64,000 nt of DNA from an uncultured bacterium (GTDB lineage: Bacteria; Hydrogenedentota; Hydrogenedentia; Hydrogenedentales; CAILVY01): the NCBI GenBank assembly GCA_937951485.1, contig CALEDJ010000029.1, positions 68,589-132,588 on the forward strand, read 5' to 3'. How positions within the stretch are numbered: the stretch's first letter is position 1; every line of letters begins with the position of its first letter. The translations under genes were made by a program, and so were the position numbers. Below are positions 18,322 through 63,187 of the stretch, one piece after another. The notes under the pieces are model-generated. The model ran no database searches and was not told the origin of the DNA. It worked only from the letters and a program-made list of their open reading frames with translations.

Positions 18322-20844
18322 TCATCCAGGAAGTCCGACGCAGAAACCGTCCTCGGTGGGCGGCACCGCATCGGGACAGGCGTAATAGCCACCAGCGTTG
18401 TAGAACTGGATTACGCGAAGCAATTCGGAGAGACTTATCACCCAGTTCTGCGGATTGTAGTCCGATGCGTGCGGCGCGCAGCCATGTTGCGCGGGATTTG
18501 CGCCGGGCACATATCCATCCTCGGTGCCATCGGGCGGGTCGGCGCAGTGGTAGCCGCCGGAGTTGAAGAACTGGATCACGCGAAGTAGTTCGGACAGGTT
18601 GATCCGATTATCTCCGTTCTGGTCCGCGGAGTGAAATTCTCTCTCGCCCTCGCCTTCGCCTTCACCCTCGCCCTCGCCTTCACCCTCGCCTTCGCCTTCG
18701 CCTTCACCTTCGCCTTCGCCTTCGCCTTCGCCTTCACCCTCGCCCTCGCCCTCGCCTTCACCTTCGCCCTCGCCTTCACCCTCGCCTTCGCCTTCACCCT
18801 CGCCTTCGCCTTCACCCTCGCCCTCGCCTTCACCTTCGCCTTCACCCTCGGCGGCTTCACACACAACGCCGCGTATTTCGCCATCCGGATACTCTGTGCT
18901 GGTGATCAAGTAGTAATACTGCTGACCCTCGACAAATAGCGTCAGTTCTTCTTCAGTCATCCCGTATTCTATGGGACTGGTCGGATCACCCAAGTCAATC
19001 AAGAGCGGCCCGTTTTCACCTGGAGCGCCTTCGTAAATCCCAACAGAGATTGGATTAGCGACAGTATGCTCAATGTATATGGAGAGAACCAGGTCCCATT
19101 CGGGAAGAAACAGTCGGGGCGTGACGATCGCGTGGCCTGTTGCGTCAGTCACAACCGGCGGCACAACCTGGTCGCCGGAAAGCATGTCGTCACAGGCTGG
19201 GGCAAAGTCACAATACGGGGGGTAGATTGCGGGATTCAATGCCGCGGTCACAAAGCCAATCCCTGGATCCGCAACTTCTTCCTTCTCGCCCTCGCCTTCG
19301 CCCTCGCCTTCACCCTCGCCTTCACCCTCGCCTTCACCCTCGCCTTCACCCTCGCCTTCGCCTTCGCCCTCGCCCTCGCCCTCGCCTTCGCCTTCACCCT
19401 CGCCAGATTCAGGACAAAGGACAGGCGTGAAGTATGCGTATTCACAGATATTGGGTGCTCCATCGCCGTCCGCATCGCCATAGGGCAACAGATTGAAAAG
19501 CGATACGTAGTCATCAGGGTCCAGATTTGGGTTGGCGAAACCACCGGGCACCAACTCGCCCACCTGATCATTCAGGAGCGCGACCAAGGCGGCCACGAAA
19601 CCAAAAGAACCGGTGCCCGTCACGATGAACGGGGCATCAGGGTCTTCGGGCGTGGGTTGAGAAGAAACCTCAAAGCCGCCATCGCCAAGGGTCAGATATG
19701 CCGTCAGTATGGGAATCAATTCCGGTACAAGGACATTCAGCAGGGCTGCCGCCGTCTCGCCGAGGTCCGCTTCAAATTGCGTCATATTGCCTTCCCATGC
19801 TTCGCGCACGTCCCCATGGATAAAGACGCCGTTGTTGAATAGCGGATAGACCAGTATCGCCTGAAGCAGACCGAGTTCATTGGCCGCGTCCAGGACGCCG
19901 TTGCCTTGAACCTCGACGAGCAGGTTTTCCGGGTCTGAGGTGTCAATCAGGAACGATCCGTTGATGTCGGCGTTGTTCGGCTGGAGCATGCCGACGAGAA
20001 ACTGCCATTCTTCGCCAAGATCACCAAATACCGGATTGTCAACCAATCCCTGGAACAATTCGCAGAAATTGATGTCAAGCCCGGGTTCGGGGACCGTGGG
20101 GTTCAGGGCGGCGGCGACATAGGCCACAGGACCGTCTCCGGCATAATAGTTATATTCTTCGCGGTTCGAATACCCATCACCGTCCGCATCGGATTCCGCG
20201 CCGAACCATTCCCCCATGGTCACAAAATCCTCCGGGTCGGGGGGCGTTACACCGATATCGGCAAGCAACCCAATCAGTTCTGTAATGGCATCCATCGTGT
20301 TGTCATCGCCGAGGATCGCATATCCCGCGAGCGTGTACGACAGCGAATCAATCAGGAAAGGCGCCAGCAAGTTCACGAGCGCCAGATAGCCGACCGCGTT
20401 CAGCGCATCCACAACGGTCGTCTTGATGAGCGTAAAATTGGCATTGAAAGCCGCTAACACGTCATCATGAGTGAGCCCGTTCTGATCGAAGCCCGGTGTG
20501 TTCAATACATACGCGATAAGCCCCAACTCATACTCCGCATCCAGCATGCCGTTGGGCTGCACGTACGGTTCCTCTTCAATGACGGCCCCGTTGATGTCTG
20601 CCTGATCACAGGCGATAAGATTGGCAAAATCATTGATTTCCGGAACCAACGGCGCTACGGGGGCCAGTGAACAGAAAATGGTGTCCATGGCGCCGCAGAA
20701 GTTGAAATTGCCCACACTTGGGGGTAGCGGCGTAAAAGGAGTGTTGAATGGCGCAGGGCACGCAGGCACAGCGTGCGCCTCCCCGCTGAACACTCCTATC
20801 GCAGCGATTGCAGCGATACACAGGTATGTTACTTGCTTTTTCAT
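18322..20844 (-). CDS. Secreted repeat protein with CHRD domain, two (EG)n linkers and a C-terminal paired SELLR module
   Basis: An 840-residue protein with a Sec signal peptide ([25 protein letters not shown]). Two long repeats of about 190 residues follow. Each opens with ADING and contains NG(M/V)LDA..ELGL, a hydrophobic helix block and a calcium loop ([26 protein letters not shown]). A first (Glu-Gly)n linker leads to a CHRD-like domain ([20 protein letters not shown] ... [13 protein letters not shown]). A longer (Glu-Gly)n linker leads to a C-terminal module with two halves: [20 protein letters not shown]...GGYHC...TEDGY and [20 protein letters not shown]...GGYYAC...TEDGFC. That module resembles a dockerin-like duplicated calcium-binding tail and may anchor or sort the protein. 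The start follows AGGAGGAAAACCGATC. Confidence 0.85.
18643..18849. repeat. Hexanucleotide microsatellite encoding (Glu-Gly)n, block 2
   Basis: About 35 tandem copies of a 6-bp unit (GGCGAR on the coding strand) encode alternating Glu-Gly between the CHRD domain and the C-terminal SELLR module. Gly is always GGC; Glu alternates between GAA and GAG, giving a slight longer-period pattern. Confidence 0.9.
19285..19407. repeat. Hexanucleotide microsatellite encoding (Glu-Gly)n, block 1
   Basis: About 20 tandem GGCGAR units encode Glu-Gly between the N-terminal repeats and the CHRD domain. It has the same base composition and codon pattern as block 2, so slippage or unequal exchange between the blocks could delete the CHRD domain in frame. 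Confidence 0.9.
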
Positions 20845-21279: not shown

Positions 21280-22770
21280 ATGACCGATACAAGCGGTTCA
21301 GAGGCCGGGGCATACTGGCGCAGTGCCGCGTATTGGGTGGCGGTGTTGACGCTTTGTCTGGCGATGCCCGCAGGTTGTCTCTCGTCCTGTGGTGGTTGCC
21401 GGAGGACGGAGCGGATTGCCCCCGCCGTTGGCGTTCCCGGCGCGCAAACACCGCTCGCGCCGATGCTGGCCCCCGGCGCGCAGACGCCGCTCTCCCCGAT
21501 GCCGGCCCCCGGCGCGCAGACGCCGTTCACCCCGATGCCGGCCCCCGGCGCGCAGACGCCGTTCACCCCGATGCCGGCCCCCGGCGCGCAAACACCGCTC
21601 GCCCCGATGCCGGCGCCGATTGCCCAGAGTCCTGTGGCCCCGATGCCCGCGCCGAGGCCGGGCGGTGTATCTCCCAAGGCTTCGATAGAGGAGCCGCCCG
21701 CCCTTACGGCTGAACGCCTGGAACAACTTCAGGAAGGGATGAGTTTTGACGAGGTGATGCATCTGGTGGGACGCCCGGAAGTCCTGGTGGCGCAACGGGG
21801 GGATGATAGCCTGATTTATCGTTGGTCGCAGGATGGAACGAGCCTGCTGGGGCGTTTCGAAAAAGGCGTTCTCGTGCGAAAATCGGTACAGGCTGCGCCT
21901 GATGCGGCGCCCGCCGAGGGCGAACCCCGCCGCATTACGCATGAGCAATATGAGGAAGTCCAGGAGGGCATGACGCTGGACGAGGTGTTGGCCTTGTTGG
22001 ATGTTGAGGGCCGTCCGGTCAGCCAATCATCGGAAAGCGTCTTTATCTACAAATGGACGGACGACATGGGGTCCAGTTTCACGGCGCGCTTCGAGGACGG
22101 CGTACTGGTGCGCAAAACCGGCCTTCATATCGCGGCATTGCCCAAAGAAGATAAGAAGACGCCCGTGCCGACACCGACGGGCGCAGTGGAGACCGTTGCG
22201 GAGGAAACGGCGACTGCCGAGCCGATGTCCGAAGCGGTGGCCGAGGACATGCCGCCGCAGCCTGTACGGCGGCCACGCCGGGATGTGGACTGGGAGGCCT
22301 ATGTGCGGGAAGAAGCGCCGCCCGCCATGCCGCCTGAACCGGAAGCCGCATACGAAAAAATACCGCAGCAAACCGTGCCGCCGCGCGTGACGGTGGCGCG
22401 GGGCGACCGGCGCAGCAGGGAGAATTCCCAGTTGCCGCCGGAACTGCAGGGACGCTCCTATCGGCCCAAGGCCAGATTGCCCGATTACACCTATTCGTTA
22501 CGGCGCGGCGTGTATGAAGTGCGCGTACACAACGCCGGCGACTCCGCCGTGCAGGTGGGGCTGCGCGCGGAAAGACGCGGCCTCGATGCGCGCATCCCGC
22601 CGGGCGGAACGAGATCCTTCCATGTGGATCGGGGCAACTATGCCGTATATTATATCTATGACAGCGCGCCGTACACGTTGCGCCAGGGAAGTACGCTTGC
22701 AATTGACGGCATGTTCATGGCCGATCTGAGCCTCACGATCTTCGATACGCCCGGCGGCGAAGCGCCGTAA
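21280..22770 (+). CDS. Probable lipoprotein with Pro-rich repeats and two SmpA/OmlA-like domains
   Basis: The protein has 496 residues. A hydrophobic segment (AAYWVAVLTLCLAMPAG) ends in a Cys-rich stretch with a plausible lipobox LSSC. Residues ~53-124 are six 12-residue repeats of the type APGAQTPLxPMP. Two domains follow, each about 60 residues: LEQLQEGMSFDEVMHLVGRP...DSLIYRW...GRFEKGVLVRK, and YEEVQEGMTLDEVLALLDVEGRP...VFIYKW...ARFEDGVLVRK. They match the BamE/SmpA/OmlA fold, found in outer-membrane assembly and BLIP-like inhibitors. A Pro/Glu-rich linker then leads to a C-terminal beta domain (YEVRVHNAGDSAVQVGLRA...RSFHVDRGNYAVYYIYD). Role unknown; an envelope location is likely. Start: ATG after GGAGCGTGGGGA. 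Confidence 0.8.
   Translation: MTDTSGSEAGAYWRSAAYWVAVLTLCLAMPAGCLSSCGGCRRTERIAPAVGVPGAQTPLAPMLAPGAQTPLSPMPAPGAQTPFTPMPAPGAQTPFTPMPAPGAQTPLAPMPAPIAQSPVAPMPAPRPGGVSPKASIEEPPALTAERLEQLQEGMSFDEVMHLVGRPEVLVAQRGDDSLIYRWSQDGTSLLGRFEKGVLVRKSVQAAPDAAPAEGEPRRITHEQYEEVQEGMTLDEVLALLDVEGRPVSQSSESVFIYKWTDDMGSSFTARFEDGVLVRKTGLHIAALPKEDKKTPVPTPTGAVETVAEETATAEPMSEAVAEDMPPQPVRRPRRDVDWEAYVREEAPPAMPPEPEAAYEKIPQQTVPPRVTVARGDRRSRENSQLPPELQGRSYRPKARLPDYTYSLRRGVYEVRVHNAGDSAVQVGLRAERRGLDARIPPGGTRSFHVDRGNYAVYYIYDSAPYTLRQGSTLAIDGMFMADLSLTIFDTPGGEAP
21436..21651 (+). repeat. 36-bp tandem repeats inside the SmpA-repeat gene
   Basis: Six units of 36 bp begin at 21436, 21472, 21508, 21544, 21580 and 21616; five are nearly identical and the last has diverged. 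Each encodes 12 residues (PGAQTP.xPMPA), so copy-number change keeps the reading frame. Confidence 0.85.
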
Positions 22771-48470: not shown

Positions 48471-48718
48471 TGTTACATTTACATTTAAGCCGAATGGCGT
48501 GCAGCGGGGAATGTTGTGTTTTTTTACATGCCCCGGCGCTCCGCGCCACCCCCTTCCAAGGGGGATTGGGAACACATGCCCCGGCGCTCCGCGCCACCCC
48601 CTTCCAAGGGGGATTGGGAACACATGCCCCGGCGCTCCGCGCCACCCCCTTCCAAGGGGGATGTAAAAGGCCATATAGTGCACCCCGACAGTCCATGCCA
48701 TTCCGCTGAAGTGTTACA
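48471..48718. repeat. Miniature inverted-repeat element, family B copy 2, with expanded core
   Basis: The left end has TGTTACATTT followed by AAGCCGAATGGCGTGCAGCG. The reverse complement of the right end reads TGTAACACTTCAGCGGAATG. The subterminal GCAGCGGGGAATGTTG and AAAGGCCATATAGTGC are shared with the copy at 28684-28830. The core here is expanded to three 48-bp units (next entry). No coding function. Confidence 0.7.
48526..48663. repeat. 48-bp tandem array inside family B copy 2
   Basis: Three near-identical 48-bp units begin at 48526, 48574 and 48622. Each holds two hairpins: GGCGC-TCC-GCGCC and CCCCCTT-CC-AAGGGGG. Family B copy 1 has a single, diverged unit at the same position, so the array arose by expansion. 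It is not a CRISPR: units are contiguous with no unique spacers. Confidence 0.8.
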
Positions 48719-48859: not shown

Positions 48860-49027
48860 AACCCAGTCCACGTCATTGCGAACCCAGTCCACGTCATTGC
48901 GAATCCAGTCCACGTCATTGCGAATCCAGTCCACGTCATTGCGAATCCAGTCCACGTTATTGCGAATCCAGTCCACGTCATTGCGAACCCAGTCCACGTC
49001 ATTGCGAACCCAGTCCACGTCATTGCG
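48860..49027. repeat. 21-bp tandem array (eight units)
   Basis: Eight contiguous 21-bp units of the type AACCCAGTCCACGTCATTGCG occupy 168 bp, with only C/T changes (AATCCAG in the middle units, CGTTATTGCG once). Both strands are open in several frames because the unit is a multiple of three. There is no upstream ribosome site or promoter to suggest a gene. The CGTCATTGCG core is that of the dispersed CATTGCG family. Confidence 0.85.
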
Positions 49028-59665: not shown

Positions 59666-62629
59666 TTATTTGCTCGTTTGGTTCATATAGACCAGACCCC
59701 AGTTCAGGGAATTCACCAGCCCCTTCGTGTCAATGTAAACAGGCGGGTCGTCCTCCCAGTGCGGGTCAATTGTTCCCGTGGCGTAGCACATGGCCGCTGC
59801 ATCCAGGAAGCGCGTTTCACCCGAATACTTGTAGGCATAGGCGAGCGAATCGGCCATGGTCAGCGCCCAGTTGTTGATTTCAAGATACACGTCCCAGTCC
59901 GGCGCAAAGAACCAGAAAGCGTTGCGGGCGGCGGCGCGGCCCGGACGGTACTCGGTCATAAAGTGATTCCGGGTGAAATCGCCGTAGGCCACCAATGCAT
60001 TGGCCACGCCCAAATCGTCGGTGAGGCCGTATTCGGCGCAGAAATCCAAATAACGACCCAGGGTCCACACGACCTGGGCATAGCCGAAATTGCTGAGCCA
60101 TTCTTCATCCCGGCGATAGTTGAGCGGGTCGGCCATCCAGGTTTTGGTGGAGAGGTCGGCGGTTTTGCCCACGATGTTGCGCAGCGCCGTGAGCCAGCGG
60201 GAATCGCCGGTTTGACGGTAGCCTTCGATGTATCCGAAGATGAGGTTGGCCCGCTCGCGGTGGAACACCGGGGTGTCGAAGTTGCTGAACTCCGACATGT
60301 TCAGCATGGATTCCAAGCCTTCCCTGGGCACTTCCAGGAACCGCCGTTCGCCGGTGAGATAATAGGCCAGCAGTAAATCCGGCACGCCGAAGAACAGGTC
60401 CACCGAGGGGGAATTGAAGTTGCGGTTGGGATTGATGTTTCCGGGCTCGTCGTGTTCGCTGTGACCGAAACAGGCGCCGTGGCACCAGTGCTGGACGCCC
60501 TCGTCGGGGATGTGCAGATAGTCAATGTCGGCGAGGTGCCACGCGCTGGGCCTGGCAAGGTCCAGCCAGCGCGGATCGCCGGAACGGCAGAACTGGATCA
60601 GCATGCCGTACAGATACCAGTATTTGAGGTTCATCTGTCCCGCGTGAGAGGGACCGAACGCCTCATAATCGAGCGGTACGTCGCCGTAGTCCTGCCAGCC
60701 GTAGAAGTTAGAGGTCTCCAGAATTTCGCGCAGGGTGCGGTTGCCAAAAGAGGGATCATCCACTTCCGGATCAAAATCGGGGTTCGGCTCGAAGGCCACG
60801 CGCACATGGCGTTCATATAACGACCACGCGGTAAAGTCTTCTGCGGGAATTTCTTCAATCGCGCCCGTGCCGGTATACCATGCGGGTGGCGCAATTCCCA
60901 TCAGCGGTTGGTTGAATGCGGCGGCCATTCGCGCCGATTCAGCCGCGCTGGGCGCACCAACCCCGAAGTGGTAGAGGATGCTGTGGGTTTTCTCCTCGCC
61001 GACGCGGAAGTTGTGGCGGAACTGCACACCGTTCGGGAAAAGTTCGACACGCAAGGTTCCGTCTTCCGCCACGGCGAGGGCTTTCGGGAAGTTCTGCCAG
61101 AAATCGCGCACGGCGGCGGTTACATGCGCCCCCGGCGCTCCGGTGCGCGACGCGCACATCCAGCCAAGCGCCTGCGATCCGGACGCGCCGCCGGGCAGGT
61201 CATCGCCGGTGATTTCGTAGCCCGGCAGCGTGCAATAGGATTGCAGCCGAGGATGTGCGGATGCCTCCATGTCGGGCCAGCCGACCAGCCCCACGTAATT
61301 GTCCCATGCCGCCGTTCCGCTGGAATCCTGGTAGAGGCGAAGAGGCGCAGAAAGCGTGGCGATATCCACGGCGTTTTCCGTCAATGCCCGCATTGGACCT
61401 TCATCCGCAAGCCGAAGATTCAGGCTGAGGCTGCCGATATACACGCTGTTCGGGCCGCCCTGTTCGTGCACGTTGGTGGGTTGCCCCCAGTCGCCCTCGA
61501 CCACCGGGTGGTTGTTTTCCACCGTGAAATCAACTCGAACGCTGGAAGACCCGGCGTAGAAATGCAGCCGTGCGCGGAAATCCAGCAAGGCGCGGGCGCT
61601 TGCGTCCAGAATACTGCCTTCCACTTTGATGAGAGCGCACAGGGGGCCGGCGCGTTCGACAGTCGTGCGGGTTGTTCGCGCTGTGAAATCCGGCGTGGCG
61701 CCGCCGACAATGCTGTCTGCGCCCGCGGGCGCATAGGCGATCGCCTGCGCAGCGGCGAGCGGATGCAGCAGCGAGTGGCCGCCGACAGTCACCTGGTCAA
61801 AGAGATTGAAACCCGCCGTGGTGTTAATCGCAAATAGGGCCGCGCCGCTGTCCACAGTGACCAAGCCCGGCGTTTCGTCGTCAATGGTGACAGGCGTCGC
61901 CGGCGCGGGGCCGGGTCCCAGTTGATCCAATTCCAAAGTCTGGGAAGCGGCCGCTGCCAAGGTTGCCTGATAAGCAACAAGGACCCATTTCGCCGGTGCG
62001 CTCGTGTCGCCCACGTGGCTTCCCCACCGCGCCAGCGTCTCGAACTGGGCCGGAACCGCTGATCCGCCGTGGATGCGCAGTCGCAACGTCGAGAGGTCGG
62101 TGACGTTCCATGAACGCGGCAGGGGCACACCGAAACTCACATATTCCCGGCTGCGGTTCACGCCAGCGCGCTCCTGTACGGTCAATAACACCGAATCACC
62201 CAGTTCGTTTTCCCCTTCCCCTTCTCCCTCGCCTTCCCCTTCCCCTTCTGCCTCACCGGGGATATTGGGACAAAACCCATCCTCCGTGCCTTCGCAAGCG
62301 TAGTAGCCGCCGGAATTGCAGAATTGTATCGCGCGAAGCAGTTCACTGAGGCTGATACGCCAATTTTGCGGATTGTAATCCGAATCATGCGCGTCGCAGG
62401 CTTGCGCGCCGACATCCTCTCCTGGCGCATAGCCGTCCTCGGTGCCCTCCTGACAATGCAGCCCGCCGCTGTCGTAGAACTGGATAAGGCGTAACAGTTC
62501 GCCGAGAGAAATCAAGCCGTTCCGGTTTGTGTCCGCGCCGTGATAGACCGCACCATGCGCATTGGCGGCCATGATGATCAGCGCCGCCGCAAGGCCGCCC
62601 AATGGTTGAATCCTGAAAGCGGCTCCCAT
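59666..62629 (-). CDS. Secreted PcRGLX/YetA-like polysaccharide lyase-type protein with N-terminal paired SELLR module
   Basis: The protein has 987 residues; the start at 62629 follows GGAGGGTACCGTC. A signal peptide (RIQPLGGLAAALIIMAANAHG) is followed by two SELLR half-modules (DTNRNGLISLGELLRLIQFY...GGLHC...TEDGY and [20 protein letters not shown]...GGYYAC...TEDGFC) and a short (Glu-Gly)n linker at ~133-146. The main part resembles exo-rhamnogalacturonan lyase family proteins: a RIFT-barrel-like domain (LTVQERAGVNRSREYVSFGV), a beta-sandwich (RARLHFYAGSSSVRVDFTVE) and a large alpha/alpha-toroid (YLYGMLIQFCRSGDPRWLDL, GYIEGYRQTGDSRWLTALRN). It probably attacks pectin-like rhamnogalacturonan. 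Catalytic residues were not assigned. Confidence 0.8.
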   Translation of the reverse strand: MGAAFRIQPLGGLAAALIIMAANAHGAVYHGADTNRNGLISLGELLRLIQFYDSGGLHCQEGTEDGYAPGEDVGAQACDAHDSDYNPQNWRISLSELLRAIQFCNSGGYYACEGTEDGFCPNIPGEAEGEGEGEGEGEGENELGDSVLLTVQERAGVNRSREYVSFGVPLPRSWNVTDLSTLRLRIHGGSAVPAQFETLARWGSHVGDTSAPAKWVLVAYQATLAAAASQTLELDQLGPGPAPATPVTIDDETPGLVTVDSGAALFAINTTAGFNLFDQVTVGGHSLLHPLAAAQAIAYAPAGADSIVGGATPDFTARTTRTTVERAGPLCALIKVEGSILDASARALLDFRARLHFYAGSSSVRVDFTVENNHPVVEGDWGQPTNVHEQGGPNSVYIGSLSLNLRLADEGPMRALTENAVDIATLSAPLRLYQDSSGTAAWDNYVGLVGWPDMEASAHPRLQSYCTLPGYEITGDDLPGGASGSQALGWMCASRTGAPGAHVTAAVRDFWQNFPKALAVAEDGTLRVELFPNGVQFRHNFRVGEEKTHSILYHFGVGAPSAAESARMAAAFNQPLMGIAPPAWYTGTGAIEEIPAEDFTAWSLYERHVRVAFEPNPDFDPEVDDPSFGNRTLREILETSNFYGWQDYGDVPLDYEAFGPSHAGQMNLKYWYLYGMLIQFCRSGDPRWLDLARPSAWHLADIDYLHIPDEGVQHWCHGACFGHSEHDEPGNINPNRNFNSPSVDLFFGVPDLLLAYYLTGERRFLEVPREGLESMLNMSEFSNFDTPVFHRERANLIFGYIEGYRQTGDSRWLTALRNIVGKTADLSTKTWMADPLNYRRDEEWLSNFGYAQVVWTLGRYLDFCAEYGLTDDLGVANALVAYGDFTRNHFMTEYRPGRAAARNAFWFFAPDWDVYLEINNWALTMADSLAYAYKYSGETRFLDAAAMCYATGTIDPHWEDDPPVYIDTKGLVNSLNWGLVYMNQTSK

Positions 62630-62693: not shown

Positions 62694-62722
62694 ATAATAT
62701 ACCACTTTATAAAAAGAGTCAA
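62694..62722 (-). promoter_or_regulatory. Sigma-70-like promoter of the lyase-like gene
   Basis: On the minus strand TTGACT (62722-62717) is followed after 17 bases by TATTAT (62699-62694). The region is AT-rich. The leader would be about 60 bases. A family A element begins only eight bases upstream of the -35. Confidence 0.55.
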
Positions 62723-62729
62723 TGAGCAT

Positions 62730-63187
62730 CAGTGTTGTCCAAAATATTGTGAGTTCCGAGAAAAGCCTTTTTGGCATAGTAACCGTTGCCCTCACCCCAC
62801 CCCTCTCCCGGCGGGAGAGGGCGCCAAGCCGGTCTTTTTCTATGGCGTCTGCCAGCCGCGCTCCTCTGCCGGAGGGAATTGTGAGTTCCGAGAAAAGCCT
62901 TTTTGGCATAGTAACCGTTGCCCTCACCCCACCCCTCTCCCGGCGGGAGAGGGCGTATATGACCAACCCTGAGGCATGCTGTCGCTCCCTCTCCCTCCGG
63001 GAGAGGGGTGGGGTGAGGGGAAACAACACGGGACGCCCTGGTAAAGGGATCAATGATATCTCAGGAATCCCCAAGCAGAGGTTTACGCATAGGACAAGGC
63101 CGGCACATCATCTTGATTTTACAGGATTCTCAAAGGGTTCTGGCCATATTTTTTCATTCCCTTGACAACCTGTTTTGGACAACACTG
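62730..63187. repeat. Family A miniature element, composite copy 2
   Basis: The left end CAGTGTTGTCCAAAATATTG (62730) is exactly inverted at the right end (63173-63187, reverse complement CAGTGTTGTCCAAAA). Inside, the left arm is present twice: GAGTTCCGAGAAAAGCC at about 62751 and 62882, each followed by TTTTTGGCATAGTAACCG and CCCTCACCCCACCCCTCTCC. One right-hand GGGAGAGGGGTGGGGTGAGG occurs near 62998. The structure suggests insertion of one copy into another or a partial duplication. The 62630-63107 gap is thus explained by the lyase promoter and this element. Confidence 0.7.

Follow-up and report, generated by a model that had tools for sequence, protein, structure and literature searches.

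Dockerins attach proteins to cohesins in cellulosomes. In dockerins, twofold internal symmetry is what permits dual binding (PMC5934362), and atypical dockerins of Ruminococcus flavefaciens, which carry an insert in one calcium loop and have lost this symmetry, keep their dockerin function (PMC5934362). Outside cellulosomes, a 'Planctosome' model has been put forward for freshwater Planctomycetes, in which an anchored cohesin, a cohesin-dockerin adaptor and tagged peptidases are proposed to form a non-cellulosomal surface assembly (PMC6461901). Our literature search found no paper linking Hydrogenedentota with cohesin, although two papers mention Hydrogenedentes along with dockerin. Here we describe a large, previously undescribed family in Hydrogenedentota, a calcium-loop tag of ~100 residues that we call the SELLR module. 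From the combined analysis, we consider it likely to be a dockerin-like docking domain for cohesin receptors.

The window analyzed here is a stretch of 64,000 nucleotides (G000:C29:68589-132588) from a genome, G000, of 4.55 Mb in 77 contigs and 94% complete. A first-pass annotation had described the same two-part module on two unrelated secreted proteins, C-terminal in one and N-terminal in the other. Both minus-strand open reading frames and their modules were found where it had placed them, with the following features:

18322-20844, minus strand: gene 1, an open reading frame for a secreted 840-aa protein, with a Pfam CHRD match and sub-threshold EF-hand matches
20770-20844, minus strand: signal-peptide-like N terminus of gene 1, read directly from the translation
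19285-19404, minus strand: first (Glu-Gly)n linker of gene 1, a TRF tandem repeat, seen also in the translation
18865-19182, minus strand: CHRD domain of gene 1 (the passenger), residues 555-660, Pfam PF07452 at 40.7 bits, above cut-off
18644-18843, minus strand: second (Glu-Gly)n linker of gene 1, the joint between CHRD domain and module, a TRF tandem repeat, seen also in the translation
18325-18642, minus strand: module copy 1, 106 aa, a predicted dockerin-like docking domain (family search; AlphaFold2 model; Foldseek matches led by dockerins)
18589-18624, minus strand: calcium-type loop 1 of copy 1, D7-E18, with D7 and E18 as putative ligands
18562-18597, minus strand: helix 1 of copy 1, residues 16-27, from DSSP of the AlphaFold2 model
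18424-18462, minus strand: calcium-type loop 2 of copy 1, D61-E73, one residue longer, with D61 and E73 as putative ligands
18394-18432, minus strand: helix 2 of copy 1, residues 71-83, from DSSP of the AlphaFold2 model
59666-62629, minus strand: gene 2, an open reading frame for a secreted 987-aa protein, with a Pfam PF21345 match
62549-62629, minus strand: signal-peptide-like N terminus of gene 2, MGAAFRIQPLGGLAAALIIMAANAHGA, read directly from the translation
62255-62545, minus strand: module copy 2, N-terminal, right behind the signal peptide (E 2.6e-35; AlphaFold2 model; Foldseek matches led by dockerins)
62207-62254, minus strand: (Glu-Gly)n linker of gene 2, ends approximate, read directly from the translation
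61520-61873, minus strand: PcRGLX-like central beta-sandwich of gene 2 (the passenger), residues 253-370, Pfam PF21345 at 46.5 bits, above cut-off

From N to C terminus, the gene 1 protein consists of a signal peptide, two repeats of ~190 aa, an EG linker, the CHRD domain, a second EG linker and the module, which forms its very C terminus; the CHRD domain thus lies between two EG tracts. The gene 2 protein (987 aa when counted from the ATG, with a TTG further upstream at 62722 likewise open) runs from signal peptide to module, EG linker and PcRGLX-like domain. The two modules are 63% identical and their passengers are unrelated according to Pfam. Each module contains two half-modules with the motif D-x-N-x-D-x-x-I-x-L-x-E-L-L-R-x-I-Q-F followed by GGY-x-C and TEDG(Y/F), and SDYNPQNW opens the second half. 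The duplicated loop-plus-helix layout noted in the annotation is present, with a calcium-type loop in each half, but the second loop (D61-E73) has 13 residues, one over the canonical length of D7-E18.

The window also contains several repeats. Between gene 2 and its neighbor, a 78-bp perfect direct repeat (62746-62823 and 62878-62955) has a 21-bp palindrome (CCCTCTCCCGGCGGGAGAGGG) at its end, and another copy lies in inverted context at 62987-63007; the 78-bp repeat gives rise to spurious 'LSRRER' ORFs. Two neighboring near-perfect tandem arrays lie at 48526-48662 (48-bp unit, 2.9 copies, 100%) and 48860-49027 (21-bp unit, 8 copies, 97%), and a 36-bp tandem array at 21436-21614 encodes a repeated Pro-rich stretch within the ORF at 21280-22770.

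A protein search of the whole G000 genome revealed 37 matches to the module (best E 2e-74), a similarity far beyond chance. These were mostly C-terminal and often behind (EG)n, with a few truncated at contig ends or degenerate. Two copies look decayed (G000:C34:112333-112464 and G000:C16:90008-90499), one of them with an internal TGA. Twelve contigs (C4, C9, C16, C21, C24, C38, C43, C46, C51, C52, C55 and C63) end within a module or its EG repeat or right next to one, and the total of 37 may therefore contain split copies and leave others out. Passengers in G000 include lactonase, PhoPQ-related, Kelch, PKD, LRR, GLUG and P-domain proteins, together with M14, trypsin-like and C25 peptidases.

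We found the module in 41 of the 68 Hydrogenedentota genomes examined, which all belong to one order, at between one and at least 72-84 copies each; it was missing from nearly all genomes of family f5. A collection-wide search confirmed 432 loci, and the best 80 of these were all titled Hydrogenedentota, Hydrogenedentes, Hydrogenedens or 'uncultured bacterium'. The first-pass annotation's proposal of a lineage-specific module is borne out to this extent: among these 80 loci and the 68 phylum genomes, every placeable match came from Hydrogenedentota or unnamed MAGs. Among virus contigs, 13 pattern matches to the module included no relative, and plasmids contained no match. Five loci in f2, f4 and f5 genomes (L207-L211) hold divergent relatives (E about 1e-20); four of them have the module inside an ORF of 485-698 aa, with longer spacing after the helices. 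These may represent an older form of the family.

The annotation had called the module dockerin-like yet distinct, and structure prediction and family searches fit this description. AlphaFold2 models reached a pLDDT of 95.5 for copy 1 (90 alignment rows) and 88.6 for copy 2 (47 alignment rows), with each half consisting of a loop, a single helix and a two-strand hairpin in a duplicated, pseudo-symmetric arrangement. In Foldseek searches of the PDB, dockerins took the first 12 places for copy 1 and the first eight for copy 2, although these are weak matches (E >= 0.55), as are the VIA-align comparisons with dockerins (Z up to 4.0 for copy 1 and 4.2 for copy 2, over 53-73 residues). EF-hand chains other than dockerins are far more numerous in the PDB, so the ranking carries weight because these commoner chains do not lead it. 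A PDB sequence search gave no convincing homologue.

No curated Pfam or NCBIfam model reached its cut-off on the module, and it did not merge with any established family; hundreds of SELLR-type domains are therefore currently unannotated. The type I dockerin model PF00404 scored copy 1 at 13.3 bits against a cut-off of 22.9 and, even at E 1, matched only 7 of 32 G000 copies (best E 0.0027). When the module profile was compared with 19 local type I dockerins, the probability was 20.6 and only one loop-helix aligned, in register. EF-hand models likewise remained below cut-off on copy 1 (PF13202, 21.5 versus 25.9 bits; PF13405, 20.9 versus 25; PF13499, 18.1 versus 30). Measured against the defining traits of type I dockerins, the module has two repeats of calcium-type loop plus helix in pseudo-twofold arrangement (helices 16-27 and 71-83) and is fused to or co-occurs with cohesin (in f1, f3, f7 and f11 genomes and in G000), but it lacks paired 12-residue loops with Asp at position 12, having Glu instead (E18, E73) and a 13-residue loop 2. 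Because neither the PF00404 cut-off nor the position-12 Asp is reached, the module should not be filed with that family; it is not a Pfam type I dockerin, though it appears to work like one.

A cohesin-like receptor elsewhere in the genome had also been suggested as a possibility, and cohesin proteins with membrane tails are present; fusions of cohesin with the module, and gene clusters containing both, recur. The only above-cut-off cohesin in G000 sits in a module-bearing protein:

G000:C29:136974-139682: cohesin-module protein with signal peptide, module, EG linker, cohesin, PKD and a repetitive C-terminal region

A second, weaker cohesin (G000:C27:14663-16249) has a hydrophobic segment and arginines at its end. 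This TM-tailed cohesin-like protein is a candidate receptor for this genome, and full-length relatives were present in 23 of the 41 genomes with modules and in 0 of the 27 without (Fisher p 2.6e-7), a difference confounded by clade. As a sole receptor it was rejected, since all four f7 genomes lack a relative despite having 19-24 modules each. Raw cohesin presence was also rejected as evidence: cohesins are common in module-free genomes as well, and presence alone is therefore not specific.

Genomic linkage is more informative. Cohesin proteins ending in a module were found in f1 (G001, G002), f3 (G004, G012), f7 (four genomes) and f11 (G040), with the cohesin above the Pfam cut-off in each of these families, and in low-copy f10 and f11 genomes one of the few modules is placed behind a weak cohesin-like domain. 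Relatives contain a gene cluster with up to four adjacent small cohesin proteins, and cohesin-module adaptors mostly adjoin further cohesin genes; in G009, which has 18-19 modules, no fusion was found in the cohesin cluster. Across these loci, a C-terminal TM segment with a basic tail was present in 41 of 49 module-free cohesin proteins versus 1 of 99 module proteins. Five of the eight tail-less cohesin proteins were truncated by contig ends and one was a cohesin-dockerin adaptor. The sole module protein with such a tail (L122:5383-6969) has an internal module, followed by ~220 residues.

Type I dockerin can also take the place of the module. In G044, an f5 genome, the matching cluster protein (L237:3910-4641) combines a cohesin with Dockerin_1, both above the Pfam cut-off, and its cohesin is sister to those of f1 cohesin-module adaptors in the cohesin tree (support 96/70, with the 70% SH-aLRT just under the starred level). 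The tree as a whole needs about five label changes, which means either that cohesin proteins acquired or shed the module repeatedly or that the tree is not well resolved. A PhoPQ-related passenger ends in a module in G000 and in a type I dockerin (E 2.8e-15) in the dockerin-rich genome G019, at 52% identity; most of its other f5 relatives carry no recognizable tag. Eleven genomes have at least 10 modules and six have at least 10 Dockerin_1 matches, with no overlap, but since all six dockerin-rich genomes belong to f5, this mutual exclusion amounts to roughly one phylogenetic contrast rather than many.

Together, the cohesin fusions, clusters and dockerin exchange are the strongest functional evidence for docking. 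In the predicted fold, each of the two pseudo-symmetric halves comprises a calcium-type loop, a SELLR-x-IQF helix and a Cys-bearing hairpin (GGY-C/TEDGY), and the module is placed at the C terminus, or more rarely behind the signal peptide, of many unrelated secreted proteins, which according to this model it would tag. It would most likely bind cohesin domains in a calcium-dependent manner. The receptors would be the small secreted cohesin proteins whose C terminus consists of a membrane helix followed by a basic tail, and they would probably keep passengers at the cell surface, while cohesin-module fusion proteins would act as adaptors that lengthen the chain. We regard it as an even call whether the module is, further, a separate dockerin class, either of independent origin or too diverged to recognize, that took over from type I dockerin in several Hydrogenedentota lineages as a phylum-specific, non-cellulosomal form of surface display. 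Tens to more than eighty diverse secreted proteins per genome would then dock on few membrane-anchored cohesins via cohesin-module adaptors.

The small number of cohesins is the main weakness of docking for G000, where 37 modules stand against two recognizable cohesins, though one anchored receptor serving many clients could account for it. The same imbalance, together with the diversity of passengers and a helix core whose conservation would suffice for a single partner of any kind, would also suit a calcium-stabilized terminal attachment module for a non-cohesin target (surface polysaccharide, S-layer or another receptor), with cohesin merely one of its passengers. We consider this unlikely, given that cohesin fusions recur in several families, that the module clusters with anchored cohesins and that type I dockerin stands in for it in a matching adaptor gene.

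The position of the module bears on whether it could instead serve as a C-terminal signal for sorting or secretion, recognized by a secretion or sortase-like machine. Among the best 80 of the 432 loci, the module lies within 11 residues of the C terminus in 96 of 97 relatives, and 57 of 63 complete module ORFs begin like a signal peptide; the module is not limited to a few non-secreted proteins. One passenger type is a gingipain-family C25 peptidase, elsewhere a type IX substrate class. A sorting signal is nonetheless quite improbable and this part of the first-pass annotation is disfavored, since the module is N-terminal in some proteins and its carriers do not have the membrane tail typical of sorting. 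About five G000 copies lie directly behind a signal peptide (window gene 2, C29:136974, C36:13566, C45:16854 and one on C43), contrary to the strict C-terminal position of a type IX domain; the module is predicted with confidence to fold as a domain of ~100 aa; and the hydrophobic segment plus basic tail of sortase or exosortase substrates occurs in just the one of 99 module-bearing proteins. A search for the type IX component SprA_N was silent in all 68 genomes but likewise in every control genome, and so carries no weight either way.

Sequence conservation points to a module under long-standing constraint. Among 32 complete G000 copies (496 pairs), median pS was 0.70 and median pN 0.29, with pN below pS in all 496 pairs, which shows purifying selection, and synonymous codons occur at each of the 16 invariant columns. 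With synonymous sites near saturation, the copies are therefore old and constrained, and recent amplification was rejected as the cause of their similarity. The loop residues D7, E18, D61 and E73 are invariant across 90 alignment rows, and helix residues R21, Q24, R76 and Q79 vary little or not at all. Between the two halves, the 18-residue cores share 74-80% identity, as much as the same half does between copies, which is expected for a dual-binding dockerin. Four conserved cysteines (33, 55, 89 and 101) could form two disulfides, C33-C55 and C89-C101. The Glu-Gly linker adjoins both window modules as first described but does not accompany every module, being found within 60 aa upstream in 50 of 90 relatives (~44% lack it). 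A passive, partnerless calcium-dependent stability cap or spacer spread by domain shuffling with (GAGGGC)n linker DNA would fit the EG-coding simple repeats that flank many copies and could promote recombination, and the many contigs that break in or next to them, but it is the least probable alternative given the linker-free relatives and the conservation of R21, Q24, R76 and Q79 across copies whose synonymous sites are near saturation.

If docking on cohesins is correct, it would explain how much of the secreted protein inventory is attached to the cell in an uncultured phylum, and it would add a dockerin type missed by current family libraries. The matching adaptor and passenger proteins would amount to a natural experiment on the substitution of docking tags, and protein engineering would gain a new orthogonal cohesin-dockerin pair.

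Among known systems, the module most resembles type I dockerin (PF00404) and its cohesin partner (PF00963), sharing duplicated loop-helix halves, D-x-N-x-D-x-x-I loops, pseudo-twofold symmetry, a C-terminal location on many secreted proteins, fusion to cohesin in adaptors and replacement by type I dockerin itself in a sister family. It differs in length (~100 versus ~60-70 residues), in having Glu at loop position 12 where type I dockerins have Asp, in a second loop that is one residue longer, and in its SELLRxIQF helices, each followed by a Cys-bearing GGY-C/TEDGY hairpin. EF-hand families (PF13202, PF13405 and PF00036) are also similar, in that loop 1 resembles a canonical EF loop and most copies give sub-threshold matches, but the module model lacks the preceding E helix, scores fall below curated cut-offs, and structural matches are led by dockerins rather than calmodulin-like proteins. 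Like the atypical R. flavefaciens dockerins (PMC5934362), the module departs from the standard calcium loop; unlike them, it has matching hairpins in both halves and retains its symmetry. The 'Planctosome' shares the plan of anchored cohesin, adaptor and tagged proteins, but it belongs to another phylum and involves recognized dockerins and few components (PMC6461901), whereas the proposed Hydrogenedentota system has an unrecognized module in tens of copies and small TM-tailed cohesin proteins as its probable anchors.
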